Shown here: one piece after another, positions 986-25,602 of the stretch
Position numbering within the stretch: position 1 is the first letter of the stretch
Layout of the letters: every line of letters starts with the position of its first letter
From: Clostridia bacterium
GTDB taxonomy: Bacteria > Bacillota > Clostridia > Christensenellales > Pumilibacteraceae
Assembly: GCA_017396125.1 (NCBI GenBank)
Contig: JAFQMX010000026.1
Coordinates: forward strand, 1-35,669
Length of the DNA stretch: 35,669 nucleotides
Direction: 5' to 3'
Notes under the pieces: model-generated
Told to the model about the DNA's origin: nothing
The model's database searches: none
Seen by the model: the letters and a program-made list of their open reading frames with translations, nothing else
Translations under genes and position numbers: made by a program

Positions 986-1010
986 AAGATAAGGAAATAG
1001 GGAGAACGGA

Positions 1011-1910
1011 ATGAAAGTTTCTTTTTTGGACGATAAATTTTTCGGCCGTCTGGAAACGTTATCCTTAAATCTCAGAAGCAATCTCGCTGGATATTTCGGT
1101 GGAAAGCACTTGGTAAGCACGTATGGACAGACCGTAGAGTTTTCGGATTACCGTGAATATCAGTTTGGCGATGATATACGTCGAATAGACTGGAACTTGT
1201 ACAGCCGTTTTGAGAAGTATTTCTTGAAATTGTTTACAGACGAAAGACAGATGCAGATACAGCTCTTTTTGGACTGCTCGGCATCGATGGGCGAGGACAA
1301 CCCACAAAAAGCAGCGTACGCTGTAGCATGTGCGGCGGCTCTCGGATATTTGTCTGTACACAATATGGATAAGGTATCGCTCAACTTTATGAAGAGCACG
1401 GGTTGTGACAATCCGTTTGGTACGATTATCGGCAAGAATGCTTACTTTAGAGCTGTAAGCGCCATGAACGAGATGGAATTCGTTGAGGAAGTGGATATCG
1501 AAAAATGCGTAACCAGTTGCAACAACACAAGTACGGGCAACGGATTGAGCGTAATAATTTCTGACTTTATGACGGACAGTAACTGGAAGAAGGCAGTAGA
1601 CTACTTGTGTTACAAGAAGAGACAGGTACTGCTGATGCAGATACTGACGCCGGACGAGTTGGATCCAACTTATGACGGACGTGTACACTTGATAGACTCC
1701 GAGTCGGTAGACGTGGCGGATACCAAGAACATGAAGATAAAGATTACACGCAGTATGCAATTAGCATACGAAGAGGCACTCAGAGACTTTAAGCAGGACA
1801 TCAAGACGTACTGCAACAAGAGAGGAGTAGGCTACGTAACAATACGAACCGACATTCCTATCGAAAGAGTGCTGTTCTCTGAATTATTAAATGCAGGTAT
1901 TATGGGATGA
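1011..1910 (+). CDS. DUF58 domain protein, MoxR partner
   Basis: This 299-residue protein carries the DUF58 signature (REYQFGDDIRRIDWN, about residues 47-61). A vWA-like strand with a metal-site motif (DCSASMG, about residue 89) follows. DUF58 proteins are nearly always encoded beside MoxR ATPases and are thought to work with them; the biochemical role is not settled. A GGGAG-type ribosome binding site precedes the ATG. The stop overlaps the next start in an ATGA arrangement, which indicates translational coupling with the vWA gene. No signal peptide or membrane span is evident, so it is probably cytoplasmic or peripheral at the membrane. Confidence 0.92.
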   Translation: MKVSFLDDKFFGRLETLSLNLRSNLAGYFGGKHLVSTYGQTVEFSDYREYQFGDDIRRIDWNLYSRFEKYFLKLFTDERQMQIQLFLDCSASMGEDNPQKAAYAVACAAALGYLSVHNMDKVSLNFMKSTGCDNPFGTIIGKNAYFRAVSAMNEMEFVEEVDIEKCVTSCNNTSTGNGLSVIISDFMTDSNWKKAVDYLCYKKRQVLLMQILTPDELDPTYDGRVHLIDSESVDVADTKNMKIKITRSMQLAYEEALRDFKQDIKTYCNKRGVGYVTIRTDIPIERVLFSELLNAGIMG

Positions 1911-3934
1911 AATTATTAACACCTTTAGGATTATTAGGCTTAATCTCCTTGCTGATTTTGCTTATTATTTACATAATAAAGCCAAACTACCAGCAAAAGA
2001 GAATTTCCAGTACATTTATCTGGAAGCTAAGCTTAAGATATAGAAAGAAGAAGATTCCGATTTCTAAGCTCAGAAATATCCTTATAATCATCTGTCAGAT
2101 TTTGATTTTGACTTCGTGTGCATTTATTTTGGCTCAGCCTAATAAAGTGCTCGAAATGCCGGAAAAAACTGACGAGTTGATTATTGTTTTGGATGCTTCT
2201 GCCAGCATGAGATCGACTTATGACGAGAAAACCCGTTTTGAGAGAGCTGTAGATTCCATTATCAAAGATTATAATGGTATGAAAGAAGAGGGAACTATGT
2301 CCGTTATCATTGCGGACGCTGCTCCTCATTACTTGTTCGAAGGCAAGGGCAAGCTTCCAGAAGATGCTGCTTTTGTTGACGAAAAGTTCGACGAGCTTTT
2401 GCTCGACGAGATGGCTTGCTCTTACGGTGTTTCTGATACTGAGGCAGCTTTCAAGATTTGCGAACAGATTCTTAAAGAGAACCCAGACGCTAAAATCAAA
2501 TACTACACTGATACCACTTACGGCGTTGTTCCTAAGAAGATCGAAGTAGTTAACGTTGGCGTAGCAAAGAGCGTTGAAGGCGCAATCGGTGAATGGAATG
2601 CAGGTATCCTTAATGCTCGTGCAGAGTACGAGGACAACTATTATGCGTTCTACGTAGAAGTAGCGTGCTTTGGAAAGGACGCTGAAGTAGAGCTTACCGT
2701 TCAGATTCAGGGTGCAAACGCTTACGATGCTAGCGACTACGGTTCACAGATTACTGTTTCCGAAAGCGTTTACTGCGGACAGGATCAGACCGCAAACGTA
2801 GTATTCAAGTACTTCAATACACAGGAAGAGCAGGAAGATTACATGGCTATCATTGACGACAAGACCACCGTTGTGGTTCTTGATCAGAGTCAGAGAGTAT
2901 TCTCTTATCAGTCTGTGCATCTTTCTCTTGCAGTTAGCGATACTTTCTACGAGGACGACAGCTTTGATATTTACGGCGGTCAGAAGGAAGTTATGAAGGT
3001 GCTTTATACCAGTACCATGGCAAACAGCTTCTTCTACGGCGCAATGAACGTATTTAGTAGCGAACTTGCAGACAGATGGGATATCCAGTATAATGAGCAC
3101 AAGAACGAAATGCAGGCTCCTGGTGATCCAATTGAGGAGCACGTAACCGAGGGTTACGACTTCTATATCTACGAGCATGACGTTCCAAATAAGCTTCCTA
3201 CTGACGGCTTTATTTTGCTCGTAAACCCTGACGAGACTCCGGACGGACTCGGCGTAAATTTTGGTCAGGATGCACCGCTTGGTAGCAGCAAGTCTATGTC
3301 TGCTCTCGACGATACCCATCCACTTCTCAAGAATATTGACGCTAGTAAGATTACGATTAGTATGCACAAGCAGGTTCTCAACTACGATCCAAGCTTTACC
3401 GAAGTTTTGAGCGTAGACGGACGCCCACTCGTGCTTGTTAAGAACGAAGTAGATTGCAAAATCGGAATTTTCGCATTCAGCTTGCACTATTCCAGCATCG
3501 CAATTCAGGCTGCGTTCCCTCAGCTTTTGTACAATATGTTCCAGTTCTTTTTGCCTCCTACGGTAGAGCGTAACGCTTATGAAGTTAACGAGACCATTTC
3601 GTTCAATGCAAGAGGCGCGGATCTTACCGTTGCAAGCGTAACTAATATCGTAGAGCCTGAGCTTTATACCGAATTCCCAGCAGAATACACCGCAACTATT
3701 CCGGGAACTTACGAGTTGTTCCAGACTGCGTTTGGCAAGAGCATTTACGAGAAGATTTACGTTAAGATTCCTGAGACTGAAAGTAACATTTGGGCTTATG
3801 AAGATTCACTTGTTGACCCATACAGTCAGCAGCAGATCGTAGACTTCTACGACGACTTGTTGATTTACATTGCTGCGGCACTTGTAACCTTGCTCTTCTG
3901 TGAGTGGTGGTTGCATCTCCGTGAGGAAGTATAA
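1907..3934 (+). CDS. BatA-like membrane protein with vWA domain
   Basis: The 675-residue product begins with a BatA-type N-terminus: a hydrophobic helix at about residues 5-27, a basic stretch, and a second helix at about 59-79. A vWA domain follows with a metal-ion site of the DxSxS type (VLDASASM, about residue 95). A long acidic middle part is predicted to be extracytoplasmic, and a final membrane helix lies near the C-terminus (about 648-667), ending in a short basic tail. It overlaps the DUF58 gene by 4 bp, and the next vWA gene starts 14 bp after its stop. In MoxR clusters such proteins are likely membrane-anchored partners of the ATPase. The specific function is unknown. Confidence 0.85.
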   Translation: MKLLTPLGLLGLISLLILLIIYIIKPNYQQKRISSTFIWKLSLRYRKKKIPISKLRNILIIICQILILTSCAFILAQPNKVLEMPEKTDELIIVLDASASMRSTYDEKTRFERAVDSIIKDYNGMKEEGTMSVIIADAAPHYLFEGKGKLPEDAAFVDEKFDELLLDEMACSYGVSDTEAAFKICEQILKENPDAKIKYYTDTTYGVVPKKIEVVNVGVAKSVEGAIGEWNAGILNARAEYEDNYYAFYVEVACFGKDAEVELTVQIQGANAYDASDYGSQITVSESVYCGQDQTANVVFKYFNTQEEQEDYMAIIDDKTTVVVLDQSQRVFSYQSVHLSLAVSDTFYEDDSFDIYGGQKEVMKVLYTSTMANSFFYGAMNVFSSELADRWDIQYNEHKNEMQAPGDPIEEHVTEGYDFYIYEHDVPNKLPTDGFILLVNPDETPDGLGVNFGQDAPLGSSKSMSALDDTHPLLKNIDASKITISMHKQVLNYDPSFTEVLSVDGRPLVLVKNEVDCKIGIFAFSLHYSSIAIQAAFPQLLYNMFQFFLPPTVERNAYEVNETISFNARGADLTVASVTNIVEPELYTEFPAEYTATIPGTYELFQTAFGKSIYEKIYVKIPETESNIWAYEDSLVDPYSQQQIVDFYDDLLIYIAAALVTLLFCEWWLHLREEV

Positions 3935-3948
3935 GGAGGATTAAAAAT

Positions 3949-6882
3949 ATGAGAAATTTTGAAATACATTTTGAACATCCTCTGCTGTTGTTGCTCATCA
4001 TTTTGTTCGTTGCGTTTACGCTTATCCCTTACTTTAGACTCAACAAGAGATATCGTAAGACCCGTAACCGTATTACTTCGATGACGCTCCATATCATAAT
4101 TTCGGTATTGTCTATTGCGACTCTCGCAGGTATGACCATGACCTACGATATTCCTAACGACAAGAACGAATTGATTTTGCTCGTAGACGTTTCAGAGACT
4201 GAACAGCTCGAAGAAGATACGAGAGAAGATCTTATTCAGACTATTATTGCACAAGGTAGTTTTGATAACTACAATATCGGTATCGTATCTTTTGGTTTCG
4301 ACCAGGTTTATGCTGCTCCGCTTACCAAAGACGTAGATAGCATTTACGAAAAATACCTTACCGCTGAACTTCCTGATACCAGCGCAACCAACATTGCTGC
4401 TGCTCTCGAGTTCACTAAAGATTTGTTTAAGCATCCTAAGACCGCCAAGATCGTTCTTATTACCGACGCAAAGGAAACTGACGAAGAAGCAGCTTCTGCT
4501 ATCCGTTCGGTAACTGCTCTCGGCATTAAGCTTGATACCGCTTACGTAGGAAGCACTTACGAGGACAACGACGTTCAGATCGTTGACATCGAGCTCCCTA
4601 ATTACCACGTTCTTCTTAACGAAGAGTGTGCAATTAACGTAACTGTTCAGAGTAAAGCGAAGAACGAAATTACTCTTCAGCTTATTGAAGATGGCGTTCC
4701 ACTTCAGGACGCAGATTCCAGCCTCACCGTAGAGGTTAATCCAGGAACTTCCAAGCATACCCTTCGTCATACTTTTACCAGCGAAGGATTGCACGAGCTT
4801 GGAGTAACCGTGGTTAGCAGCGGTGACTCCGTGGAAAAGAACAACGCCTACAGCTCTTATATGCTTATCGAAGTATTCAACAGAATCTTGATTCTCGAAG
4901 CGTACAGCGGCGAATCAGAGTTGCTCGAAGAAACTCTTGAAATTGATGACTTGTACGACGTTGACGTAGTTAACCTCATTACCGGAGATAATCTCCCTAA
5001 GAGCGTTGACGACCTCCGTCAGTACGATCAGATTATTCTTAATAACGTTGCAAACGCAGACCTTATTAAGTACAACGATGTGATGGGTAGAGGTAACACC
5101 AACCAGCATCTCGTAGAAGGCTTCGACCTAATGCTCGAGGAGTACGTTAAGGTTCACGGTGGCGGATTGTTCACCGTTGGCGGTAACGAAGGTGGTAAGG
5201 ATTCCGGTTCGGACGAAGCACACGCTTACAAGCGTTCGGATATGTACAACACTACTTACCAAAAGATGTTGCCTGTAAATGCAATCAACTATACTCCACC
5301 TCTTGGACTCATGATCATAGTGGATACCTCCGGTTCCATGCTTATGACCGACGATAGCGGTGTAAGATACGTTGACTGGGCAATGGCAGGTGCAACTGCT
5401 ACGCTTAATGCTCTTACCGAGCGTGACTACGTAGGACTTATGACACTTGCTAGCGACTATAACGTAATATTGCCGCTTACCCCACGTACCCAGGAAGCAA
5501 AGATTCTCGAAGCGTTCAACTCCGTAAAGGAAGCAAACGGTTCTACCATCTTCCCTGGAGCAATCGAAAGAGCAGGTCAGGCGCTTAGAGCGCTTACCGC
5601 AGTAGACAGAAGACACATCCTTCTCGTTACCGACGGTATCCCTGGTGATGCTCCTTCTGCATACGAGGACTTTATCCGTCAGTACTATGAGCAAGACGGA
5701 ATTACCATTTCGGTAGCAATTATCGGACAGAGTGGATATCCGCTCAAGACCGCAGGTAATACTTACAAAGAAGAAGATTTGACTGACGAGGAGATTCAGG
5801 GTGATCCATTCAAGAAGATGCTTAGAGCAGTTTGTATCGGTAACGGATATTTGTACTGCGTACCGCGTACTCAGTCTGAGCAGCTCGTAACTCTCATGAG
5901 AGAGGACTTGAACGTTCCTGAAATTAAGGAAGTAGTTCCTGAGGAGTTTGCTCCGTTGATATCCAATCCGTTATCTCCTGTGGTTAAGGGAGTTGCAACG
6001 GACGAAGAGTCGCAGCGAAACTTTATGACGGTCAACTTGGGTGGTTTCTATGGAACCAAACCTAAGCCTACGGCGGACGTAATACTCCAAGGCGAGTACG
6101 AAGTTCCGATATACGCCCAATGGAAATACGGAAACGGTATGGTCGGAAGCTTTATGTGTGACCTTAACGGAACCTGGTCGTTGGACTTTATGTCTAATGA
6201 AAACGGTTACACGTTGCTCACCAACGCTATCCAAAACCTCATGCCTATAAACAGCATTAGACCTAGCGAGATTAACGTTACGGCTACTGAGTACAACTAT
6301 ATTAACAAGTACAGCGTACTTACCGAGCTTAAGAGCGGAGAAAAGATAGAAGGTACTATAGTAGACACAAGCGAAGAAGGCGCAGTTCCTATTTCGTTGA
6401 ACGAAGCAACTCTTATGGAAGAAGGTGTTGATTATCCTGTATACGTAACTTCTCCGTTGGATGCATCCAACAGCTTCAGCCGTCTTACCGTTGTTGTTAA
6501 GGGTTCCGGAGTTTACAAGCTCACCTTTAATAAAGTTGACAAAGATGGCAATGTTCTTGCTACTTACGAGACCTACAAGGCGTTCTCCTATTCTCAGGAA
6601 TACGACACCTATGATGATCCAGAAAATCCAGTAGATTACGAGGAAATCATGGACAGCTGGGCTTATAGAGGAAATGGTATCATGGTAGAAGACATTACCG
6701 ATCCTGCAGAAATTTACGATAGCTTTGTGACTGAGATTCACAAGACCTTTGATCCAAGATTCTTGTTCATGATCATCGCTATTACGTTGTTCTTGCTCGA
6801 TATTGCAGTTCGTAAGTTTAAGTTTAAGTGGCCACACGAAATTTATCGTGATTACAAGGCTAAAAAGTCTAACAACAAATAG
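3949..6882 (+). CDS. Large membrane protein with two vWA domains and a glutamine-amidotransferase-like region
   Basis: The 977-residue protein has two N-terminal membrane helices (about residues 12-28 and 47-65) and one near the C-terminus (about 935-955). The first vWA domain starts near residue 79 with a variant metal site (DVSET, Thr in place of the last Ser). A second, canonical site (IIVDTSGSM) lies near residue 460, with a later LLVTDGIPGD. The second vWA appears to be inserted in a GATase1-like fold: GGGLFTVGGNEGG comes before it, and YGNGMVGSFMCDLNGTWS after it. The start is supported by AAGGAGG 8 bp upstream. It is the last membrane component of the MoxR operon and probably lies mostly outside the membrane. 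Its ligand is unknown. Confidence 0.85.
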   Translation: MRNFEIHFEHPLLLLLIILFVAFTLIPYFRLNKRYRKTRNRITSMTLHIIISVLSIATLAGMTMTYDIPNDKNELILLVDVSETEQLEEDTREDLIQTIIAQGSFDNYNIGIVSFGFDQVYAAPLTKDVDSIYEKYLTAELPDTSATNIAAALEFTKDLFKHPKTAKIVLITDAKETDEEAASAIRSVTALGIKLDTAYVGSTYEDNDVQIVDIELPNYHVLLNEECAINVTVQSKAKNEITLQLIEDGVPLQDADSSLTVEVNPGTSKHTLRHTFTSEGLHELGVTVVSSGDSVEKNNAYSSYMLIEVFNRILILEAYSGESELLEETLEIDDLYDVDVVNLITGDNLPKSVDDLRQYDQIILNNVANADLIKYNDVMGRGNTNQHLVEGFDLMLEEYVKVHGGGLFTVGGNEGGKDSGSDEAHAYKRSDMYNTTYQKMLPVNAINYTPPLGLMIIVDTSGSMLMTDDSGVRYVDWAMAGATATLNALTERDYVGLMTLASDYNVILPLTPRTQEAKILEAFNSVKEANGSTIFPGAIERAGQALRALTAVDRRHILLVTDGIPGDAPSAYEDFIRQYYEQDGITISVAIIGQSGYPLKTAGNTYKEEDLTDEEIQGDPFKKMLRAVCIGNGYLYCVPRTQSEQLVTLMREDLNVPEIKEVVPEEFAPLISNPLSPVVKGVATDEESQRNFMTVNLGGFYGTKPKPTADVILQGEYEVPIYAQWKYGNGMVGSFMCDLNGTWSLDFMSNENGYTLLTNAIQNLMPINSIRPSEINVTATEYNYINKYSVLTELKSGEKIEGTIVDTSEEGAVPISLNEATLMEEGVDYPVYVTSPLDASNSFSRLTVVVKGSGVYKLTFNKVDKDGNVLATYETYKAFSYSQEYDTYDDPENPVDYEEIMDSWAYRGNGIMVEDITDPAEIYDSFVTEIHKTFDPRFLFMIIAITLFLLDIAVRKFKFKWPHEIYRDYKAKKSNNK

Positions 6883-6946: not shown

Positions 6947-9793
6947 ATGAAAAAGCGACTTAGCTTCGCTATAATTGTTCTTACGATTTGTATATTTGCG
7001 TTATGTGCCATAGGTTGCAGTGAGACTATTGCAACGCCTTTCAATACGAATATTGATAGCGATTACAACTTGACTTGGGCTCCTGTTGACGGCGCACGTA
7101 GCTATGAAATCGAAGTAAAGAACACCGAAACAGACGTAACGACTAAAATCGTTTCGAGAAAGACCACCTATTCTCTTGCAAAGTTTGACAAAGGTCTCTA
7201 CGAGATCAAGATCAAAGCAATAGCAGGAAAAGACGACGAAAAAAATTCCAAGTGGTCCAAAGTTATTGAATTCTATAGACCGTATGAATCCGGTTGTATT
7301 TATACCCTTATCAACGGCGGTTCGGAGTACGAGCTTACCAGAGCCGGTGTTTCGGAGGGTGAAATCAACGTTGGTGACGAAAACGGTATGTATAGAGGAA
7401 AACCAGTTACCACTATTGCTAAAAACGCATTTAAGGGTAACAACAGAATTACCAAAATCACCATGGGTAAGTACGTTAAGAGTATCGGTACCAGCGCGTT
7501 CTACAACGCAACCGGTTTGTCTGCAATCGATTTTGCCGACAGCCAGATCACTACTATCGGTGCTTCGGCTTTCCAGGGTTGCAGAGGACTTTTGAGCATT
7601 GTATTGCCAGAAACCGTTACCGTAATCGAGGATTCTACCTTTGCTTACTGCCGTGCTCTTGAGAGCGTAACTATCGGTAGCAAAGTTACGTCTATCGGAA
7701 AAACTGCTTTCTCTGCTTGTAATTCTCTTAAATCTCTCGTAATTCCTGATGAAGTAAAGACCATCGCAGAACATGCTTTCTCCGAGAACGAGGCTCTTAC
7801 TTCGTTGACTATCGGTAAAGGTGTAGAGTCCATTGATGAATATGCTTTTGCATATGCAACTAACCTCGAAACCATTACCTTTGCAGAAGACGGCGCACTC
7901 AAGACCATTTCTGAGTATGTGTTCCTTGAGGCTGATAAGCTCGTTAGCGTAGAGCTTCCGGAAGGTTTGGAAACTATTGGTAACTTTGCTTTCAGTAGTT
8001 GTGATTTGTTGACTGACGTTACTCTTCCTAGCACTTTGACTAGCTTGGGTAGAGGAGCGTTTGTTGCAACTGCTCTTTATATTGCGGCTCAAGAAGCAAG
8101 CCAGGCAGGTACGGGTAGTGACATTTACTACGTTGGAAATTGGGTAATTGGTTGCAATACCACCAAGTTTGAAGAAGTTAAGGAAATCTACGCTGAAGAT
8201 TTCAAAGAGGGCGTTTATGGATTTGCCGACTATGCATTCTATAACCTTGGTAGAATGGAAAATAACATAAAGGTTACCGGTATTGAAGAAGTTTACCTTC
8301 CAGAAACTCTTAAATATTTGGGTGCATACTCTTTTGCAGGAAACTTTAAATTGTGGAAAGTAGATATTCCGGACGGTAGCGTTAAGAAGATTGGTGCGTA
8401 CGCATTTGCTTCCTGCAACGTTTTGATGAACCTCTATATTGGTGAAGGAGTTGAGGAAATTGGCGACTATGCCTTTATGGGATGTACCAAGGTTGACAAC
8501 CCTACTACAGGACTTCTTATTCCTAGTAGCGTGACCCGTATTGGTGCATACGCTTTCTATCAGACCGCTTTGTATTCTAAACCGGTAAACAACATTATGT
8601 ATGCTGGTAACTGGATTGTAGGCGCATCTCCAATGATCACCGAATCTACCCTCAAGCAGGGTACCGTAGGTATCGCTGACTATGCGTTCAACAACTGTCA
8701 GGGACTTAGAAACATTACTGGTGATGCTACCGCAACCATTAAATACGTGGGCGTTGGTGCATTCAGAAACTGCGTAGCTCTTGCTACCATCACCTTGGGT
8801 GACAACCTTAGAGAAATTAAGGAGCTCACCTTCTACAACTGTGCGTTGCTCTTCAGAGTAAGCTTGCCACCTGCACTTAAAACCATTGGCAAGGGTGCAT
8901 TCTATGGTTGCAGCACTTTGAGCGAAATCGATATGTCTTCGACCGACGTAACCGTAATCGAGGAATATGCATTCTACAACTGTCTCAACCTTAAGTCTGC
9001 AAGATTCAGTAACAAAACCACCGAAATCCAGCAGAGAGCCTTCTACGGCTGCTTGGGCTTGGACGGCATAAGAATTCCTGATTCCGTAACTTCTATCGGA
9101 ACCAGAGCTTTCTACGGTTGCTTGGGCTTGAAGAATTTGACTATTGGAAGTGGAATCGAAGTTATCGGAGAGTCAGCGTTCAGTAAGTGTGCTTCTATTA
9201 CCGATCTCGTAATTCCTGGTACCGTAAAGGAACTTTCTAGATATGCGTTCTACGGCTGCGAAGCTCTCGTTAACCTTACCATTGAGGAAGGCGTTGAGAC
9301 CATCGGCGAGCTCGCATTCTACGGCGCAGCATCTCTCAAGAATCTCGTAATTCCTGCATCCGTTAAGACCATCGGAAAGTATGCTTTCCGTGGTTGCACC
9401 AATATGGAAAACCTTGTTCTTAGAGGTGAGTTCAAATCCGTTGGCGCACACGCATTCTACGGCAGCAAGCTTATGACTATTTACTCAGACAACACCGCTG
9501 AGCATTTTGCAGACGTTGACGTTTGGAATATTCGTTGGAATTCTTCCACTCGTCCGGTTATTACCGGTTGTATCTTTGACGCCGACGGAAAAGTCGTTTC
9601 CGTAGCCATTAGCGAAGACACTATTATCAATGCAACCGCACTCAACGGCATCGTTGCTCCGCAGCATCCTGGATACACCTTTGCAGGTTGGTCCACGAGC
9701 GAAGGCGGCAGCGTAGAATATTATGCTGACGAAATCGTTGACGTTGCTGACGGAATTACATTATATGCAGTTTGGGAAGCAGAAGTTGCTTGA
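6947..9793 (+). CDS. BspA-type leucine-rich-repeat surface lipoprotein
   Basis: The 948-residue product starts with a lipoprotein signal peptide whose lipobox ends AIGC, giving a lipidated Cys at about residue 24. A short fibronectin-III-like segment follows (about 35-105). A long array of BspA/TpLRR repeats then fills most of the protein (about 130-870), with recurring patterns such as IGxxAFxxCxxL and TIPxSVxxIG. The C-terminus carries one Listeria-Bacteroides (Flg_new) repeat with GYTFAGW and LYAVWE. Such proteins are surface adhesins or ligand binders in gut and oral bacteria. AAAGGAGG lies 6 bp before the ATG. It follows the MoxR operon by 64 bp and may be read from it. The binding partner is unknown. 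Confidence 0.9.
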   Translation: MKKRLSFAIIVLTICIFALCAIGCSETIATPFNTNIDSDYNLTWAPVDGARSYEIEVKNTETDVTTKIVSRKTTYSLAKFDKGLYEIKIKAIAGKDDEKNSKWSKVIEFYRPYESGCIYTLINGGSEYELTRAGVSEGEINVGDENGMYRGKPVTTIAKNAFKGNNRITKITMGKYVKSIGTSAFYNATGLSAIDFADSQITTIGASAFQGCRGLLSIVLPETVTVIEDSTFAYCRALESVTIGSKVTSIGKTAFSACNSLKSLVIPDEVKTIAEHAFSENEALTSLTIGKGVESIDEYAFAYATNLETITFAEDGALKTISEYVFLEADKLVSVELPEGLETIGNFAFSSCDLLTDVTLPSTLTSLGRGAFVATALYIAAQEASQAGTGSDIYYVGNWVIGCNTTKFEEVKEIYAEDFKEGVYGFADYAFYNLGRMENNIKVTGIEEVYLPETLKYLGAYSFAGNFKLWKVDIPDGSVKKIGAYAFASCNVLMNLYIGEGVEEIGDYAFMGCTKVDNPTTGLLIPSSVTRIGAYAFYQTALYSKPVNNIMYAGNWIVGASPMITESTLKQGTVGIADYAFNNCQGLRNITGDATATIKYVGVGAFRNCVALATITLGDNLREIKELTFYNCALLFRVSLPPALKTIGKGAFYGCSTLSEIDMSSTDVTVIEEYAFYNCLNLKSARFSNKTTEIQQRAFYGCLGLDGIRIPDSVTSIGTRAFYGCLGLKNLTIGSGIEVIGESAFSKCASITDLVIPGTVKELSRYAFYGCEALVNLTIEEGVETIGELAFYGAASLKNLVIPASVKTIGKYAFRGCTNMENLVLRGEFKSVGAHAFYGSKLMTIYSDNTAEHFADVDVWNIRWNSSTRPVITGCIFDADGKVVSVAISEDTIINATALNGIVAPQHPGYTFAGWSTSEGGSVEYYADEIVDVADGITLYAVWEAEVA

Positions 9794-9818
9794 CAAGTTG
9801 CAAAATATATAATAAAAT
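9790..9818 (+). promoter_or_regulatory. Promoter of the 1692-residue lipoprotein gene
   Basis: TTGACA (9790-9795), a 17-bp spacer and TAAAAT (9813-9818) form a near-consensus housekeeping promoter. The -35 box overlaps the last codons and stop of the preceding LRR lipoprotein gene. The expected start of transcription is near 9825, which leaves a leader of about 110 bases. Confidence 0.75.
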
Positions 9819-9827
9819 TTTACCATG

Positions 9828-9862
9828 TGCCGAAACTTCTCTGTATAGAGGTGGTTTCGGCA
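9828..9862 (+). other. Hairpin at the extreme 5' end of the lipoprotein mRNA
   Basis: TGCCGAAAC (9828-9836) pairs perfectly with GTTTCGGCA (9854-9862). An inner stem CTCT/AGAG (9839-9842 and 9847-9850) closes a GTAT loop. No T-tract follows on the + strand, so it is not a normal terminator. With the predicted transcription start near 9825, the stem would begin within the first few bases of the mRNA. That placement is typical of 5' stabilising or regulatory stems. Confidence 0.55.
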
Positions 9863-9935
9863 AATGTGGTATAAAAAGGACTTAACTGTAAGCGGTATTT
9901 CGTAAGCAGTTTAATAAAAAAATAAGGAGAAAAGC

Positions 9936-12900
9936 ATGAAAAAATTCAAAGTTTTGTTGATTGCTTTGCTCGTAGCCATGATGGCGCTCACTGCATTAGC
10001 ATGCGGTGGCGGTGGAAAACCTACCGTAACCTTTGCGCTTAATGGCGGAACAGTGGTTGATGCTACCGGAAATTCCATTACCAAAGTTGAATTGGTAAAA
10101 GATGAAGATTACGTTCTCCCAACTCCGACCTACGAAGGTTATGAGTTTGAGGGTTGGTATACTTCCAAGGATTTCAGTGGTGATCGCGTAACTACTGTTG
10201 CGGGTGACAAATCTGTTAAGGTTTACGCTAAATGGGCTAAACTTTATGCAATCAACCTCAATCTCAACGGCGGAGAAATCGGGGCTACAGGCCTTATGCT
10301 TAAGGAGGGCGCAAACGTTGCTGCATTTATGCAGAATTACGTTCCTACCAAGGCTGATCATCAGTTTGGACAGTGGAAAATCAACGGAGCGACTCTTACC
10401 AGCAGCTACACCATGCCTGGCGAAGCGATTACCCTTACTGCAGAGTACAAGGTAAAGTACGTAGTAAAATATCTTTTGCAGGATATCGAGGATGAAACCT
10501 CTTATACTGCAGACGAATTTGAACTCGTAGGATATGACTATGCAGGAGCAAGCATTTCTCAGACTGCTTCTACTATTACCGGTTTCGAGGCGATCGAGCA
10601 CGATGGTACTGTTTCCAGTATTGTAGTTAATGCAGATCCTGCGCAAAACGAGCTTAAATTCTACTACAACAGAAACGTTTATAACGTTACCTTCAATATG
10701 GTTTATCCTGACGGAACCAAGGGCAGAAACGAGGTTATGACCGCTAAATACGGTGAAAACATCATTGACCCTACTATGGAGCAGGAAGGATATTACCTCG
10801 CTGGTTGGAGCAGTCAGGAAGGCGTAGATTACGTTCAGTATCAGTCTAGCTTCATCAGCGAAAAACTTGGAAAAGAAATTAAGGCTATTGTTGTTGATGG
10901 CGAAATGAACCTCTATCCAGTATGGAGAAGTGGTCTTACCGATATGTTTGGTAGCGCAGACTTGCTCTTTATTGACGAAGAAAATGAAGGCGTTGTTTAT
11001 ATTTACAGACGCGGAATTTTCTTTGAGGGAACTATTGCAGGCGATACCAACGAATTTACCTTTAGAGATGCTAACGGCGACACTCTCTTTAGAGGTAGAG
11101 TTATCGAAAACAATCAGTTTGCATATAGAAATACTGCAAATGACGGACTTGCTGCTATACAGTATATTCCTGGTCTTGGAACAGCAGGCGTTCAAATCTA
11201 TTTTGATGCATACAACGGATTGACCTATTCCGAGCATCAGCAGGATGGAAGCACCATAGAATCTTATGGTACCTATACCCTCCAGACTGACGAAGAGTAC
11301 TCCAACGATATTTACGTTGTTGTGTTTGATGAAGGTCCTATGGCAGGCAAAACCATTAAGCTTATGCTCGCTAGAAATGATATGGGAACGCTCTTCTTCG
11401 TTGTTTACAACCAGAGACACGTAGACCTCGGTGTCCTCGTTAAGTTTGTTAAATACGAAGGTGGTATTGCACACTACGGTGAAGAATATAACGCTATTAC
11501 CTTGGATGGTTACGGACTTAGAGCTACCTACAACGAGGCAGTTTATGAGTACAGCTATGACGAAGATAGCAATGTTATTACTCTTTATGGTGCTTACGGC
11601 TCTGTAGTTGTTCGCGGCAAGCTCGTAGAATATGAGGTCAATGGCGAAAACGTTTTGGGATATATGGACTATGATCCAATCCTTGATGATACTTATACTC
11701 TTGCTGATGGCAGCAAGCTTGAAATGGATGGTATCGGCGACGCTACCTATAAGCCAAAGGGCGGTACTCCGGTTGCTGGTGATTTCACTTACGGATATTC
11801 CCCAATTGCTACCGGTACCACCGATATCATTATCGATCTTACGGCAAGCAACGGCGACGTTTACAACTTTAGACTTGCTCTTACCGTGGATCAGATGGGT
11901 CAGATTACCGATAAGGTTCTTACCTCGTTGCCTAGCGGATACGTAGAGCTTTATTACGCTCATGACGATATCTTCTTGGTATTGAACGATACCGCTCCTG
12001 GTCGCGCGTCGGTTTACGGTTATTACAACACCGGATTGATGATGTACGTTTATAAGTATTCTTCCGGTACTTATACTACTAGCGATAACGATATGTTCGT
12101 TTATACTGCTACCAATTTCCACAATTCCGATAAGGCAATTACTCTTGAGGACGCTGAAATTAATCCTAAGTTTATAAAGTCCATTAAGTTTATGAAGATC
12201 GAAGGATTCTTCGTAAACCCTGTATTTGCGATCTACTCTTACGTTGATACCGTAAACGAAGAACACGTAGTTGCTGATGGTATCTTTACCAACACTGTAG
12301 ACGACGTAAATTACAAGATGACTCTTGCTCAGGGCGTTGGTATGTACTATATTGCAGACAGCGAGCCTGTATACGTTGTTTATGGAAACTACATGGAAGA
12401 CGTTTACGTTGTTCAGATGCCTAACACCGGTGCACAGGGACTTATAAGACTTTATAAAGAAACCGGCAAGTTTGCATTCCTTGAGTACATTCCATACAAG
12501 GCGTACCTTCTCGAAGAAGATGGTTATCCTAGCGAGACTACCTACATTTACAGCGACGGTGAAGGTAACGCATACTACAGAGAAATAGAAATTGACGAAA
12601 AGACCGGAAAGGAAACTATCGTTAAGGAAGTTAAGGGTAAGTTTGCTGAACAGGGCGTAGCTGGTCAGACCAATATGGGTGACGAGCTTGTGATGTTCAT
12701 CGCAGACGACGCTTCTATGGAATTCAAGTTCTTGATGTTCTCTAGAGGAGATTCCCGCTTCTATGCTCTTTATAATGAAGATATTAACGGAACTTATACC
12801 GGTAAAGACGGCAAGAGCAAGATCAAGATTGACGGTTATCAGTTTGGTATTACCTATACCGACGCTAACGGATATACCTTCGAGGATCTCGTAACTTACG

Positions 12901-15014
12901 CTATCGAATACAACGAGGATGGAACTTTTGTTCTCGTAGTTCAGATAATGGGTCAGCTTCGTTACTTTGACTTTGACGAAAACGGCGCGTTCACTCTCCG
13001 TGGTGCAGAAGAAGGCGTTCACCTCGTTTACAAGAACAACAATCTCCAGGATTACTACGTTGAATTCGACGGATATGGAAAAGCAAAATTATTTAGATTT
13101 ACCGGCGAATACGACGAAAACGATGAAGCAATCAGAGAATATATTGACGAAAACGCTACTTATACTGTTTCCGTTGACGGATTGCTTACCTTGAACTATA
13201 CCGAGAACGCTACTGCTAAGGTTATTGAAGGTGTGTTTGGTTACTTGCAAAGCGGCGCAAGCATGTACAAGATGGTTGTTATTCTCGACAACAGCATCGT
13301 AGGTACTTACGTTGACAGAAATACCAACGAAATTATTGAGCTTGACAACGCTAACAATGCAGTCAAGTACGACGTTACCGGCAATGAGTTGCACGGTAAG
13401 TACGAAATCGTAAGTGACGAATTGCTCTTTGTTGCTATCTCCGATAAAAATGGCGTAATTGACGAGGAAAAATCCGGTCTTTATACTTACGACGCAGAAA
13501 ACTTTACTATTACCGCTCATAGCTTCCGTGCTAGAGCTTACTATTCCGCATCGCTCAGAAACTTCAGATTTACCGCTGCAGGCTTGGTAGTATACGTAGA
13601 CGGTTCTAACGGTTACTACGTAATGGATGGCTCTAATGTCATCTTCTACCGTCGTGCATCCGTAGATACTCCAGACGGCGTAGAGGTTAATGAGTATGGA
13701 TTCTATATCGACGATACGTTTGGTGCGTTCCGTTCGACCAAGGACTACAACGGCGAAACTTATTATGAAGTAGGCGATTACGGTTTGAGAATTGAACGTG
13801 ATAGCGCTACCGAAGATGAGTACCCACTCCCTATTGGTAACGACGTAACCGCTGCTCCTGGAACTATTTCCTTCAGCCCTACCGGAGACGGTAACTTTAC
13901 CGTACAAGTTGCTGTAGGTCTTGGCGGTACTGACTACGCCGGTACTATTACCCGTAAGGAAACCGTAACCGAAGACGGAGTTGAGGTAGAAACCTACATT
14001 TCTCTCGGATACTACAAGCTTTACGTAGAGATTAACTTTGCAGGTGAGAGAAACAGCACCTACACCATCACCAAGGTTGTGTACGACAGAACAGCTTACG
14101 GTGTTGACTATGCGCAAGAATATTTCTACTACTACGTAGGATATATCCCAACTCTTGGTGAAAATACTTGGGGTGAAATCAACGAGAGATTCGAGGTTAA
14201 TGCGGACGGTTCTTACGGAGAGGCTTACATTTCCTTTGAATTCTTTGACGATCAGGAAATGACCGACAGCAAGGGAAATAACCTCAAGGCAGAAAACGTA
14301 ACTGATTTCGTTATGTACACCAATGGAATCTACAAAGTAACCTTTACCGCAGAAGACGGTATCGAGTACGTATTGGGCTTCACTTTGGCAAGTGCAAACG
14401 GAATCGTTGATTACTACAACATCACCTCGTTCTCTTATCTCTTGAGAGCAAAGACCGGCAACGATGAATTCAGCGCAGAAGTTATTATTCAGCCGGAAGA
14501 AGATGCAGGCAAGTACGGCGACGTTGCCTTTATCAAGAATGGTGAAAAGGTAGCGTTTGACTTGTTTGCGTACACCGCGGGCGAAAGGGAAGGTAGCGTT
14601 GCTGCATTCTCCTTCATCAGAGATGAAGATGACGCAAGCAAGATCCTTTCTGGTATATTGTATAACATTTCTTTCACTATCGAAAATAATGTTATTACCA
14701 ATTGGTCTTATACCGAAAGCGCACTTACCGTTTACTACGATACTATGAACGTTTCGTACGTAATGGTTGATGGTGACGGCGTAATTCAGTACGTATGCTT
14801 CGGTGGAGTTATCAAGGCTTACACTCAGGGTAAGAACGTTTACAACGAAGGAACCGATACCTATACCGTTCCTTACAGCGATACTTCCTACATTACCGTT
14901 AAGTTTGTTGAAAATGGTGACGTAACCTATGTAGAGGTTGACACCACTCCTAACGACGGTTCTATCGATTGGGATAAAATCGGCAATGAGGACAATACTC
15001 CTGACGAGAGATAA
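9936..15014 (+). CDS. Giant lipoprotein with Flg_new and MucBP-like repeats
   Basis: The 1692-residue product has a lipoprotein signal peptide ending LACGGGG (Cys at about residue 23). Listeria-Bacteroides (Flg_new) repeats follow, at about residues 30-95 (GYEFEGWYTS ... VYAKW), 100-160 and 250-330 (YYLAGWSS ... LYPVW). A MucBP-like segment (about 165-245) lies between them. The remaining 1350 residues are rich in Tyr, Asp, Gly and Thr and look all-beta. They contain a recurring motif like IxLDGYGxAxY near residues 519, 594, 962, 1041, 1078 and 1133. No LPxTG sorting signal is present, so anchoring is by lipid. AAGGAGA precedes the ATG. It is probably an exported surface protein; its function is not recognised. 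Confidence 0.85.
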   Translation: MKKFKVLLIALLVAMMALTALACGGGGKPTVTFALNGGTVVDATGNSITKVELVKDEDYVLPTPTYEGYEFEGWYTSKDFSGDRVTTVAGDKSVKVYAKWAKLYAINLNLNGGEIGATGLMLKEGANVAAFMQNYVPTKADHQFGQWKINGATLTSSYTMPGEAITLTAEYKVKYVVKYLLQDIEDETSYTADEFELVGYDYAGASISQTASTITGFEAIEHDGTVSSIVVNADPAQNELKFYYNRNVYNVTFNMVYPDGTKGRNEVMTAKYGENIIDPTMEQEGYYLAGWSSQEGVDYVQYQSSFISEKLGKEIKAIVVDGEMNLYPVWRSGLTDMFGSADLLFIDEENEGVVYIYRRGIFFEGTIAGDTNEFTFRDANGDTLFRGRVIENNQFAYRNTANDGLAAIQYIPGLGTAGVQIYFDAYNGLTYSEHQQDGSTIESYGTYTLQTDEEYSNDIYVVVFDEGPMAGKTIKLMLARNDMGTLFFVVYNQRHVDLGVLVKFVKYEGGIAHYGEEYNAITLDGYGLRATYNEAVYEYSYDEDSNVITLYGAYGSVVVRGKLVEYEVNGENVLGYMDYDPILDDTYTLADGSKLEMDGIGDATYKPKGGTPVAGDFTYGYSPIATGTTDIIIDLTASNGDVYNFRLALTVDQMGQITDKVLTSLPSGYVELYYAHDDIFLVLNDTAPGRASVYGYYNTGLMMYVYKYSSGTYTTSDNDMFVYTATNFHNSDKAITLEDAEINPKFIKSIKFMKIEGFFVNPVFAIYSYVDTVNEEHVVADGIFTNTVDDVNYKMTLAQGVGMYYIADSEPVYVVYGNYMEDVYVVQMPNTGAQGLIRLYKETGKFAFLEYIPYKAYLLEEDGYPSETTYIYSDGEGNAYYREIEIDEKTGKETIVKEVKGKFAEQGVAGQTNMGDELVMFIADDASMEFKFLMFSRGDSRFYALYNEDINGTYTGKDGKSKIKIDGYQFGITYTDANGYTFEDLVTYAIEYNEDGTFVLVVQIMGQLRYFDFDENGAFTLRGAEEGVHLVYKNNNLQDYYVEFDGYGKAKLFRFTGEYDENDEAIREYIDENATYTVSVDGLLTLNYTENATAKVIEGVFGYLQSGASMYKMVVILDNSIVGTYVDRNTNEIIELDNANNAVKYDVTGNELHGKYEIVSDELLFVAISDKNGVIDEEKSGLYTYDAENFTITAHSFRARAYYSASLRNFRFTAAGLVVYVDGSNGYYVMDGSNVIFYRRASVDTPDGVEVNEYGFYIDDTFGAFRSTKDYNGETYYEVGDYGLRIERDSATEDEYPLPIGNDVTAAPGTISFSPTGDGNFTVQVAVGLGGTDYAGTITRKETVTEDGVEVETYISLGYYKLYVEINFAGERNSTYTITKVVYDRTAYGVDYAQEYFYYYVGYIPTLGENTWGEINERFEVNADGSYGEAYISFEFFDDQEMTDSKGNNLKAENVTDFVMYTNGIYKVTFTAEDGIEYVLGFTLASANGIVDYYNITSFSYLLRAKTGNDEFSAEVIIQPEEDAGKYGDVAFIKNGEKVAFDLFAYTAGEREGSVAAFSFIRDEDDASKILSGILYNISFTIENNVITNWSYTESALTVYYDTMNVSYVMVDGDGVIQYVCFGGVIKAYTQGKNVYNEGTDTYTVPYSDTSYITVKFVENGDVTYVEVDTTPNDGSIDWDKIGNEDNTPDER

Positions 15015-15530: not shown

Positions 15531-15606
<76 letters not shown>

Positions 15607-15609
15607 TTA

Positions 15610-15638
15610 AAAAGACTTGAGATAATCAAGTCTTTTTT
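15610..15638 (+). terminator. Terminator of tRNA-Thr
   Basis: AAAAGACTTGA and TCAAGTCTTTT form an 11-bp stem around a GATAA loop, ending in a T-tract, directly after the CCA end of the tRNA. Confidence 0.9.
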
Positions 15639-15724
15639 GCTATCACAGGTTTTCCCAAGCGCATGGGCTAGCAAAAGGCGAACATTTCGTTTAACAACTT
15701 GCATTTTGGAAAAACTTGGAATAA

Positions 15725-15756
15725 TTAACAAAAAGTTAACGAAGTCCTCGTATAAT
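15725..15756 (+). promoter_or_regulatory. htpG promoter with PhoP-like TTAACA direct repeat
   Basis: TTAACA (15725-15730), AAAAG, TTAACG (15736-15741), nine bases, then TATAAT (15751-15756). There is no -35 hexamer at the normal 17-bp distance. The two half-sites, 11 bp apart, sit where an OmpR/PhoB-type activator binds. The same spacing occurs before the response-regulator gene at 25467-25498. A further isolated TTAACA lies at 15691-15696. Confidence 0.6.
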
Positions 15757-15790: not shown

Positions 15791-17629
15791 ATGAAAAAAT
15801 TTAAAGCAGAGTCAGTCAGACTTTTGGAATTAATGGTCAATTCTATCTACACAAACAAAGAGATTTTTTTGCGTGAGCTTATTTCCAACGCCAGCGACGC
15901 TATCGACAAGAGGCATTTTGCTTCCCTTACCGACGCATCGTTAAGCGCAGACTACGAAATCAAAATTACCACGGACAAGGACAACCGTTTGCTCGTTATC
16001 GAGGACAACGGTATCGGTATGAATGAGCAGGAGCTAGAGAGTAATCTCGGCACTATTGCTTCGTCAGGAACGTTTAAGTTTAAGTCTGAAAACAAGTCCG
16101 AAGAACCGCTTATCGGTCAGTTTGGCGTGGGATTTTATTCCGCGTTCATGGTTGCCGACGAGGTTAGCGTGCTCAGTCGCAAGGTGGGCGAGAGCACTGC
16201 TTACAAGTGGACCTGCTCCAGCCTTGAGGGCTACGAAATTGCCGAGGCGGACAAGGACAGCGCGGGCACTGTAATCACGCTAAAGCTCAAAGCTGACGAC
16301 GAGGATTGCAGATACTCGGATTTTCTTGAGGACTGGTTTATAGAGTCCTTGGTGCGCAAATATTCGGACTACATTCGTTATCCAATACGCGCCGAAATCG
16401 AGGACTCGGTCAAGAACGAGGCGGGCGAGTACGAAGTAAAAAAGGTTTGGCGCACGCTCAACAGCCGCACGCCTATCTGGAAAAAGCCGAAAGAAGAAAT
16501 CAAAGAGGCTGCAGAGGAGTTTTATCGCTCCAAATTCTACGATTTTACTCCGCCCAAAAAGATAATGTCCTTTAAGCTCGAGGGAACGGTTAGTTTTCAC
16601 GCGTTGCTTTTCGTGCCGTCGTCGTTGCCGTTCAATTATTACACCAACGAGTACAAGCGCGGAGTGCAATTATACAGCGGCGGAGTTATGATTATGGAAA
16701 ACTGCGCCGAACTTTTGCCCGAATATTTAGGATTTATTAAGGGCGTGGTGGACAGCGAGGACGTTTCGCTCAACATTTCGCGCGAGATGCTCCAAAAGGA
16801 CCGTCAACTAAAGGCTATTGCGACCGCTCTCGAAAAGAAAATCGTTGCCGAATTCAAAAAATGGCAGACCGAGGACAGACAGTCGTACGACGAATTTTTC
16901 ACTACCTTTGGTTCAGGCATCAAATACGGCGTTTACGGCAACTTTGGCGAGAAAAAGGAACTGCTAAAGGATTTGCTCGAGTTTTATCTCGACGGCAAGC
17001 TTATGACGCTCAAGGAGTGCGCGGCGGCTGTGGGCGAGCAGGAAGAAATTTATTACGCCTGCGGTAGCGACGTGGAGAGTATTCAGGCACTCCCTAAGGT
17101 AAAAATGCTCAATTCCGAGGGCAAAAAGGTGCTTCTTCTTACTGACAAGGTGGACGAGTTCGTTATCAAGACGCTGGGCGAGTACGAGGGCAAAAAGTTT
17201 AAGTCCGTTTCTGCCAGCGATTTCAACACCGAAAAGAGTGAGGAAATCAAAAAGGCGGGCGAGGACAACAAGGAGATTTTTGATGCCGTTTTGACCGCGC
17301 TCGACGGCTGTGTCGAAAAGGTCGTTGCGGCGGATTTGGGCGAGGGCTCGGCAGCGCTTACGGCAGAGGGCGAGGTTTCGCTGGAGATGGAAAAGGTGCT
17401 GTCCGCGATCAACCGCGACAAAGCGCCTAAGGCAAAAAAGGTGCTGCAAATCAACCCGTCCGGCAAGGCTTTTTGCGTAATAAAGGACTTGTTTGCATCT
17501 GACAAACAGGCTTTTGATAGCGCGGTGCTTGCACTTTACTATCAGGCGGCGGTATTGGAGGGGCTTTCTATCGACAAGCCGGAAAAGTTTGCCTCCGCCA
17601 TCGAAACCCTTATCAGCAAAATGGGCTAA
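15791..17629 (+). CDS. htpG: Chaperone HtpG (bacterial Hsp90)
   Basis: HtpG is the cytosolic ATP-dependent Hsp90 chaperone. The 612-residue length fits the family. The N-terminal GHKL ATPase domain shows the family signature YTNKEIFLRELISNASDA (about residues 20-37), DNGIGMNEQEL and GQFGVGFYSAFMV. The middle domain has the conserved stretch DSEDVSLNISREMLQKD (about 320-336), and the C-terminal dimerisation region is present. AGGAG lies 7 bp before the ATG. It stands alone, with a weak terminator-like hairpin after it. The promoter carries a two-component-type direct repeat and no visible CIRCE-type inverted repeat, so control by the response regulator encoded near 25 kb is possible (inference). 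Confidence 0.97.
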   Translation: MKKFKAESVRLLELMVNSIYTNKEIFLRELISNASDAIDKRHFASLTDASLSADYEIKITTDKDNRLLVIEDNGIGMNEQELESNLGTIASSGTFKFKSENKSEEPLIGQFGVGFYSAFMVADEVSVLSRKVGESTAYKWTCSSLEGYEIAEADKDSAGTVITLKLKADDEDCRYSDFLEDWFIESLVRKYSDYIRYPIRAEIEDSVKNEAGEYEVKKVWRTLNSRTPIWKKPKEEIKEAAEEFYRSKFYDFTPPKKIMSFKLEGTVSFHALLFVPSSLPFNYYTNEYKRGVQLYSGGVMIMENCAELLPEYLGFIKGVVDSEDVSLNISREMLQKDRQLKAIATALEKKIVAEFKKWQTEDRQSYDEFFTTFGSGIKYGVYGNFGEKKELLKDLLEFYLDGKLMTLKECAAAVGEQEEIYYACGSDVESIQALPKVKMLNSEGKKVLLLTDKVDEFVIKTLGEYEGKKFKSVSASDFNTEKSEEIKKAGEDNKEIFDAVLTALDGCVEKVVAADLGEGSAALTAEGEVSLEMEKVLSAINRDKAPKAKKVLQINPSGKAFCVIKDLFASDKQAFDSAVLALYYQAAVLEGLSIDKPEKFASAIETLISKMG

Positions 17630-23707: not shown

Positions 23708-24760
23708 TCAGGAAAGGGGAATTTCTACTTGGAATGTCGAGCCCTGACCGTAGGTGCTTTTTACCGAAACGGAGTAGCCGTTTAGATGACAAATCTTTTT
23801 TACCAGCGCTAGCCCAAGTCCGTTGCCTTGCTTGCTGTGCGAGTTGTCCGCCTGATAAAACTTGTCAAAAATCTTGTTGAGCTCCTCGGGTTTTATGCCT
23901 ATTCCGTAGTCTGTGACCGAAAAAACCGCATACGTATCGTGTTTTTTTAGACTAATATCAATTTTTCCGCCGTAGTTAGAAAACTTGATTGCGTTGCTGA
24001 TAAGGTTGATCCAAACGTGCTTGGTGAATTGCTCGTATCCACTAACAGTGAGCTCGTCCATTTCGATATCAAGCTCAAGATTTTTGTCCGACCAAGCTTT
24101 TTCCAGCGATAAAACCGCCTGGCGTATTTGCTCGTCGAGAGAAAACTCGTTTTTTTGTAGTGAAGACGCGTCGTTTTCGAGCTGGGAAATGCGCAAAATA
24201 TTTTCGAGTAGCATATTGAGCGCACTCACGCTGGTCGTGAGGTTTTTTGTGTATTTTTTTCGTTCTTCTGCCGTTATGGTTTCGTCGGCAAGCAGAGTCG
24301 CGTAGCCCGAGATGGCGGAAATAGGCGTTTTGAATTCGTGGCTGACGTTGTCGACGAAGTCCTTTTTGAGAATCTCAATTTTCTTTAGGTCGCGCGCCAT
24401 GATGTTAAAGTTGTTGATAAGATCGCTGATTTCGCCCTCGGCGTCCGAATCGTCCAGAGCAACGTCAAAGTCGCCGTGAGAAATCTTTTGCATTGCCTTG
24501 CTTATTTTGCGAATCGGATTGAGAAAGTGGCGACTGACGAAAAACGATACCGTCATCGTGATAAGCAAGCTGATTGCAAACACGATAAGCACGATAAATC
24601 CCGGGTGAGTACGGCGGCTTTCGATGGCGAGCTGTCCTGATTGCAGCAAAACTATGCTCAAGCACACTATTAGCGCCAAAATAAAGAGAAGCACCTCAAA
24701 TACCATTACCAGTAGTCGAAACGTGAGGCTACCCTTTAGCGTAGGCTTCTTTTTATTCAT
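23708..24760 (-). CDS. Sensor histidine kinase (HAMP/HisKA/HATPase)
   Basis: The 350-residue membrane kinase has two helices (about residues 15-40 and 54-75) that enclose only about 12 extracytoplasmic residues. A HAMP region follows (about 75-127), then the H-box with the phospho-acceptor His 141 in VSHEFKTP. The ATPase domain has the N-box WINLISNAIKFS, G1 (DYGIGI), F (FDKFYQ) and G2 (GNGLGLAL). The tiny external loop suggests it senses membrane state or an interacting protein rather than a soluble ligand (inference). Its start overlaps the response-regulator stop by 8 bp, so the two are coupled. It probably phosphorylates that regulator. The signal is unknown. Confidence 0.95.
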   Translation of the reverse strand: MNKKKPTLKGSLTFRLLVMVFEVLLFILALIVCLSIVLLQSGQLAIESRRTHPGFIVLIVFAISLLITMTVSFFVSRHFLNPIRKISKAMQKISHGDFDVALDDSDAEGEISDLINNFNIMARDLKKIEILKKDFVDNVSHEFKTPISAISGYATLLADETITAEERKKYTKNLTTSVSALNMLLENILRISQLENDASSLQKNEFSLDEQIRQAVLSLEKAWSDKNLELDIEMDELTVSGYEQFTKHVWINLISNAIKFSNYGGKIDISLKKHDTYAVFSVTDYGIGIKPEELNKIFDKFYQADNSHSKQGNGLGLALVKKICHLNGYSVSVKSTYGQGSTFQVEIPLS

Positions 24761-25427
24761 GCTTCACCGCCTTGTATCCAAGCCCTCGCACGGTAACTAT
24801 TTCAAAATCGCCGTTGTCCTTGAATTTTTCGCGTATTCGGGTGATATGTACGTCCACGGTTCGCTCAAACGATTCGCTGTTGTAGCCCCAAAATTCGTCC
24901 ATCAGCTGACTGCGCGTAAAGATTCGGTTGGGGTAGCTGAGAAGCTTAAAGAGCAGACAAAATTCCTTGTTTGGTAGCACGGTGGTTTTGCCGTCGCAGG
25001 TGACGGTAAAGGTGTGGTAATCGAGCACCGTACCGCCCACCGTAAGCTTGTTTTCGCTAGCAATTTTGGAGCGACGAAGCAAAGCGTGTACTCGTAGAAC
25101 CAACTCGCCCAGGTCAATGGGCTTGACCATATAGTCGTCAATGCCGAGATTAAAGCCCTTTTGCTTGTCCTCAAAGGAATCCTTGGCGGTAACGAACAAA
25201 ATCGGTATGGATTTGCTGGTTTTTCGCACGGTTTCGGCAAAAGCAAAGCCGTCCATACCCGGAAGCATAATATCGGATACGATAAGGTCGAGAGTTTTGG
25301 ATTCGAGGATTTTGATGCCGTCGAGAGCGTTGTATGCGTATTCGACGCAAAATCCGCTTTTTTCCAAAGCCGTTTTCATCAAATCGTTGAGCATAGCGTC
25401 GTCTTCGACGATAAGAACTTTTAACAT
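24753..25427 (-). CDS. OmpR/PhoB-family response regulator
   Basis: The 224-residue DNA-binding regulator has a receiver domain with acidic pair Asp9-Asp10, phospho-acceptor Asp52 in SDIMLPGMDG, Thr80 and Lys102. A winged-helix domain follows from about residue 130 (TRSQLMDEFWGY, RTVDVHITRIREKF, VRGLGYKA). It overlaps the kinase gene by 8 bp. Its promoter holds two TTAACA half-sites with an 11-bp period placed directly upstream of the -10 box, which suggests positive autoregulation. The same arrangement before htpG suggests a target outside the operon. Family members of this type bind direct repeats; whether this one is a true PhoP orthologue cannot be decided here. Confidence 0.95.
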   Translation of the reverse strand: MLKVLIVEDDAMLNDLMKTALEKSGFCVEYAYNALDGIKILESKTLDLIVSDIMLPGMDGFAFAETVRKTSKSIPILFVTAKDSFEDKQKGFNLGIDDYMVKPIDLGELVLRVHALLRRSKIASENKLTVGGTVLDYHTFTVTCDGKTTVLPNKEFCLLFKLLSYPNRIFTRSQLMDEFWGYNSESFERTVDVHITRIREKFKDNGDFEIVTVRGLGYKAVKHE

Positions 25428-25466: not shown

Positions 25467-25498
25467 ATTATAAGCCCTTTTTGTTAACCTTGTGTTAA
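25467..25498 (-). promoter_or_regulatory. Two-component operon promoter with TTAACA direct repeat
   Basis: On the minus strand: TTAACA, CAAGG, TTAACA, nine bases, TATAAT (-10 at 25467-25472; half-sites at 25493-25498 and 25482-25487). No proper -35 hexamer is at 17 bp. The layout is that of an activator-dependent PhoB/PhoP-type promoter and is identical in spacing to the htpG promoter. Confidence 0.65.
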
Positions 25499-25575: not shown

Positions 25576-25602
25576 AAAAAAGCGACAAGGTGACTTGTCG
25601 CT
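25576..25602 (-). terminator. Terminator of the DUF2188 gene
   Basis: AGCGACAAG and CTTGTCGCT form a perfect 9-bp stem around a 4-base loop. On the minus strand a run of T follows. It lies about 45 bases beyond the stop of the gene at 25647. Confidence 0.88.

Follow-up and report, generated by a model that had tools for sequence, protein, structure and literature searches.

Do a two-component system operon and the chaperone gene htpG, whose predicted operators lie 10 kb apart in the window (the whole stretch of 35,669 nucleotides that was analysed), answer to the same regulator? The layout TTAACA-N5-TTAAC(A/G)-N9-TATAAT is present before both, as TTAACA-CAAGG-TTAACA-AAAAGGGCT-TATAAT upstream of the response-regulator operon (25498-25467, minus strand) and as TTAACA-AAAAG-TTAACG-AAGTCCTCG-TATAAT upstream of htpG (15725-15756, plus strand), and the positions and spacings given in the original prediction proved exact. 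The following elements were read directly from the sequence:

25493..25498, minus strand: first half-site of the regulator operator, TTAACA (found as TTWACR in the regulator promoters of relatives)
25482..25487, minus strand: second half-site of the regulator operator, TTAACA, 11 bp past the first
25467..25472, minus strand: -10 box of the regulator promoter, TATAAT, without a -35 element at 16-18 bp on the same strand
15725..15730, plus strand: first half-site of the htpG operator, TTAACA
15736..15741, plus strand: second half-site of the htpG operator, TTAACG
15751..15756, plus strand: -10 box of the htpG promoter, TATAAT, without a sigma-70-type -35 match

Counted from the first base of the -10 box, the half-sites lie at about -26 to -21 and -15 to -10. 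On the relevant strand, neither site has a sigma-70 promoter with its two boxes 16-18 bp apart, in agreement with the claim that both lack a -35 hexamer at 17 bp. Both sites have the features of OmpR/PhoB-type class II activator promoters, namely the lack of a -35 element and half-sites repeated in the same orientation at 11 bp, about 10 bp ahead of the -10 box. A point that the original prediction overlooked is that a G precedes the second half-site in both, so that each can also be read as an inverted repeat, TTAAC-N5-GTTAA, with perfect 5-bp arms.

The genes and signals around the two promoters are the following:

24753..25427, minus strand: OmpR/PhoB-family response regulator, 224 aa, with Response_reg and Trans_reg_C domains
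23708..24760, minus strand: sensor histidine kinase, 350 aa, with two transmembrane helices, HAMP, HisKA and HATPase domains
25581..25602, minus strand: terminator of the preceding DUF2188 gene, from the terminator scan
15531..15606, plus strand: tRNA-Thr upstream of htpG, followed at about 15610-15640 by a stem-loop with a T-run (read by eye; not listed by the terminator scan)
15791..17629, plus strand: htpG, Hsp90-family chaperone, 612 aa

The regulator belongs to the OmpR/PhoB family according to its domain scores (PF00072, 97.3 bits; PF00486, 77.4 bits), and it fell under the cut-off of every one of the 25 NCBIfam models listed. The kinase gene overlaps the regulator gene by 8 bp. Since the kinase has two helices (at about residues 13-39 and 53-73) joined by a loop of about 14 residues, followed by a HAMP domain (74-126), its probable input is the membrane or a partner protein, as is thought for SaeS (PMC5083920). 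The chaperone is a true HtpG (NF003555, 581.9 bits for a cut-off of 371), and its best named matches are mostly from metagenome-assembled genomes of gut Clostridia. Both transcription units very probably have a promoter of their own, the regulator because a terminator separates it from the DUF2188 gene and htpG because a tRNA gene lies upstream of it. Elsewhere in the window, genes for a MoxR AAA ATPase, a DUF58 protein, a BatA/VWA protein and VWA proteins form a MoxR-type cluster (101-6882), and two large putative surface proteins, one of 948 aa with BspA-type LRRs and one of 1692 aa with a Listeria-Bacteroides repeat, are encoded directly upstream of tRNA-Thr and htpG (6947-15014).

The occurrence of this pattern before the regulator gene and htpG is not due to chance. 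Within the window, the two sites are the only matches even when three mismatches are allowed, for a mean of 0.14 in shuffled sequences, so that the motif is not equally frequent in shuffled sequence. Across the assembly of this uncultured gut Clostridia genome (1.11 Mb, 67.6% complete), only these two places have TTAAC-N6-TTAAC with a TATAAT after it, and the reversed control was found nowhere. An extra copy of TTAAC-N6-TTAAC, on contig 30, was set aside, as its neighbour is the 3' end of a short gene and no promoter context was seen around it. When the -10 box is not required, TTWACR-N5-TTWACR has three copies in the assembly for nine of the reversed controls; two of the three stand exactly 9 bp before a TATAAT and in front of a gene, and the third falls within a transporter ATPase gene. 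As TATAAT occurs at only about 6 per 10,000 positions (in sampled sequence), such a coincidence is very unlikely. Furthermore, when 396 genomes of the order were searched, which by their rounded sizes add up to about 0.7 billion bases, the exact pattern appeared at four places and its reversed control at none. Two of these are the window's regulator and htpG sites. Another comes from a different family, where it precedes by 18 bp the gene of a regulator with 52% identity, and the last has no regulator downstream.

Comparison with relatives strongly supports the predicted autoregulation of the two-component system. Among 57 upstream regions of homologous regulator genes (the window's own gene left out), 16 match the half-sites at 10 or more of the 12 positions and are correctly spaced from a -10 box, for 0.6 expected from dinucleotide shuffles and none on the opposite strand; at least 11 of 12 matches were found in 11 of the 57, with none expected. 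Examples are TTAACG-AAAAT-TTAACA-N9-TACAAT (L022), TTAACA-AAGTT-TTAACA-N9-TACAAT (L126) and TTTACA-AAATT-TTAACA-N9-TATAAT (L123). Conservation of the operator extends to other genera and to another family, and none of nine more distant OmpR-family regulators has the half-site arrangement. A sequence model built from the regulator sites of seven relatives, with nothing from the genome under study, ranks the window's regulator promoter first genome-wide (13.8 bits, E 0.12); in this way, the motif was derived independently of the pattern chosen in the original prediction. The regulator thus very probably activates its own operon by means of the pair of TTAACA repeats; it is from the conserved operator that we infer binding, activation and their sign. 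In genus g8, six regulator genes (L011, L012, L017, L099, L104 and L105) have the operator followed by a TATAAT only 6 bp before the ATG, which leaves no room for a Shine-Dalgarno sequence, so that their mRNA looks leaderless, unlike that of the window's regulator.

In 74 genomes, a looser pattern was found at 48 places and its controls, by a hand count, at 28, with a clear enrichment of regulators; no chaperone target is shared among the loci read from these 48 places. Two additional arrangements were observed: (i) a site common to two genomes, TTAACACTCTTTTAACA-N9-TAAAAT (G078:C84:7344-7375, L170, and G079:C3:5164-5195, L145), lies 99 bp upstream of a gene for a 376-aa protein whose first 160 residues have no Pfam match, possibly a further target in genus g17, and (ii) in two genomes of genus g8 (L150, L151), TTAATA-type direct repeats precede a -10 box at 36-40 bp ahead of a gene for a lipoprotein-like protein of about 490 aa and are perhaps the operator of another regulator.

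For htpG, the evidence is of two kinds. The claim that the regulator controls this gene gains from the identity and rarity of the operator, the htpG site being a perfect match to the motif of its own genome, and loses from the orthologous promoters, from which the half-sites are absent. Indeed, among relatives outside the genus, none of 29 orthologous htpG promoters carries the operator in one comparison, and none of 41 distinct htpG upstream regions has a 12/12 half-site match. Apparent operators before htpG in L045, L069 and L077 were rejected, as their -10 boxes have only 4-5 of 6 matches and they seem to be the last part of the preceding coding sequence (read by eye). The model from relatives gives the htpG site 7.5 bits (E 0.41 and third rank in the window, not within E 10 genome-wide), in part owing to the G that closes its second half, where the regulator sites of relatives nearly always have A.

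Heat-shock control offers a second point of comparison. The htpG of Clostridium acetobutylicum has a conserved HrcA site (PMC3828012), and a clear HrcA operator (CIRCE, 15-18 of 18 matches) was found at 9 of the 46 htpG loci examined, lying just past the -10 box in L038, L039, L042, L062, L063, L074, L076, L079 and L082. The window's htpG cannot be assigned to the class I heat-shock genes: there is no CIRCE between its promoter and the gene (best match 10 of 18), and the only CIRCE of the genome stands in front of hrcA. The regulation of htpG therefore varies across the group, HrcA control appears patchy in the order, and in this lineage HrcA seems to have been replaced or bypassed at htpG, which suggests, from sequence comparison, that the gene was recruited into the circuit of the regulator. 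As no relative's htpG has the operator and some are under HrcA/CIRCE, the link looks lineage-specific. Judging from operator identity, it is reasonably probable that this regulator acts at htpG.

Autoregulation could be real and the htpG site a coincidence, htpG being served by an ordinary or differently regulated promoter. The absence of the operator from every relative's htpG and the weak score by the relatives' model would fit this, but outside regulator promoters the exact pattern occurs once in the other 395 genomes, so that about 0.002 chance copies are expected here; moreover, the half-site pair is rarer than its reversed control, yet two of its three copies stand exactly 9 bp before TATAAT. 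We consider such a coincidence unlikely. It is more doubtful still that the operators serve one of the genome's other OmpR-family regulators, or several of them in crosstalk: similar TTWACA repeats do precede regulator genes with different recognition helices, and at least three further OmpR-family regulators are encoded in the genome (matches at E 1e-30) and could use the htpG site, but the best site of the genome precedes this regulator's own gene, the usual autoregulatory arrangement.

The inverted-repeat reading, in which another dimeric regulator such as a repressor common to both genes would bind TTAAC-N5-GTTAA, draws on the G that gives both window sites their perfect arms. Relatives do not keep that G (2 of 14 regulator sites) and none of the 14 has the exact inverted repeat, which favours the direct repeat, and 13 of 14 retain A as the sixth base of the second half-site, a base required by the direct repeat alone. 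The sites also lie where those of an activator would be expected, over the -35 region of promoters that have no -35 element, and this alternative appears very improbable. We thus regard it as likely that both sites are operators of the window's OmpR/PhoB-family regulator, which would activate its own operon and, through a lineage-specific link, htpG.

Bacillus PhoP and PhoB have the OmpR/PhoB fold and bind 11-bp direct repeats in place of a -35 element. The regulator shares this fold and these repeats, and the predicted PhoB/PhoP-type activator layout holds for the 11-bp direct repeats without a -35 element; no link of the system with phosphate or with PhoP/PhoB proper was seen. A phosphate regulator was rejected on scores under the cut-offs (PhoB NF053854, 185 of 270; TIGR02154, 173 of 296; PnpS, 201 of 400), no pho genes were found in the window, and the kinase differs in having neither a PAS nor a large sensor domain. 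CiaR promoters of Streptococcus carry a direct repeat of the hexamer TTTAAG with N5, about ten bases before TATAAT (PMC3091779), and in the homologous BAS0540-0541 system of Bacillus anthracis, BAS0540 has binding sites ahead of its own gene and ahead of a gene for a heat-induced protein (PMC3091779, PMC4938410). The window sites share the direct repeat, the N5 spacer and the distance of about ten bases to the -10 box with these systems, but their half-site is TTAACR instead of TTTAAG. In the CiaR consensus, NTTAAG-N5-TTTAAG, the final G is extremely important (PMC3091779); it is missing here, the half-sites ending in C(A/G), so that membership of CiaRH was rejected. The recognition helix differs as well (RTVDVHITRIREKF in the window, VVEVYVSKVRKKL in CiaR), and the window's regulator is about 37% identical to a CiaR sequence.

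The operator of SaeR in Staphylococcus aureus, GTTAA-N6-GTTAA, differs in one base from the ATTAA-N6-GTTAA of both window sites, and according to a review the G is not absolutely required (PMC5083920). SaeRS, which activates its own P1 promoter (PMC5083920), also has a membrane-sensing kinase with a short loop and a HAMP domain, like the window's kinase, whose loop has about 14 residues, compared with 9 in SaeS. Orthology with SaeR was rejected, since SaeR does not have the closest DNA-binding domain and no saePQ-like genes were seen next to the regulator operon. RR_1586, an OmpR-family regulator of C. difficile, recognizes RTTAAG half-sites repeated directly at 11 bp, and its own operon is among the places bound (PMC6222199); it differs in the sixth base and in its targets, which are sporulation and germination. 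The window's regulator works like CiaR, SaeR, RR_1586 and Bacillus PhoP and, by the tests made, is a member of none. As for htpG, a two-component system controlling it, which the original prediction did not know to be described, exists in the cyanobacterium Synechocystis as Hik34-Rre1, in which Hik34 regulates heat-shock genes negatively (PMC3264485). Porphyromonas RprY binds the groES, dnaK and clpB promoters but not that of htpG (PMC3646045). Two-component control of htpG is thus not wholly new, and no report of OmpR-family control of it in Clostridia was found.

Activators of the PhoB type cover the -35 region as dimers arranged head to tail and recruit sigma region 4. By analogy, the phosphorylated regulator (25427-24753) would bind both predicted operators as a head-to-tail dimer on the TTAACR half-sites, which follow each other at 11 bp, cover the -35 region and end 9 bp ahead of the -10 box. 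There it would stand in for the absent -35 element and recruit sigma-A RNA polymerase. At its own promoter, this would create a positive feedback loop. At htpG, operator identity suggests that the dimer would raise chaperone synthesis while the membrane-sensing kinase is active, a link that may have arisen by lineage-specific rewiring. Whether htpG, free of HrcA/CIRCE control, was captured by an autoregulated, membrane-sensing OmpR-type system, so that Hsp90 would be made on an envelope signal and not in response to heat-denatured protein, appears to us evenly balanced.

In bacteria, the phenotypes linked to Hsp90 are modest and its cues unclear. A direct two-component operator at htpG, if true, would name a signal route for Hsp90 in Clostridia, within a small circuit of one regulator and two predicted operators. 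Furthermore, TTWACR-N5-TTAACA-N9-TATAAT provides a sequence tag by which members of this regulator subfamily that are autoregulated can be found among uncultured gut genomes.
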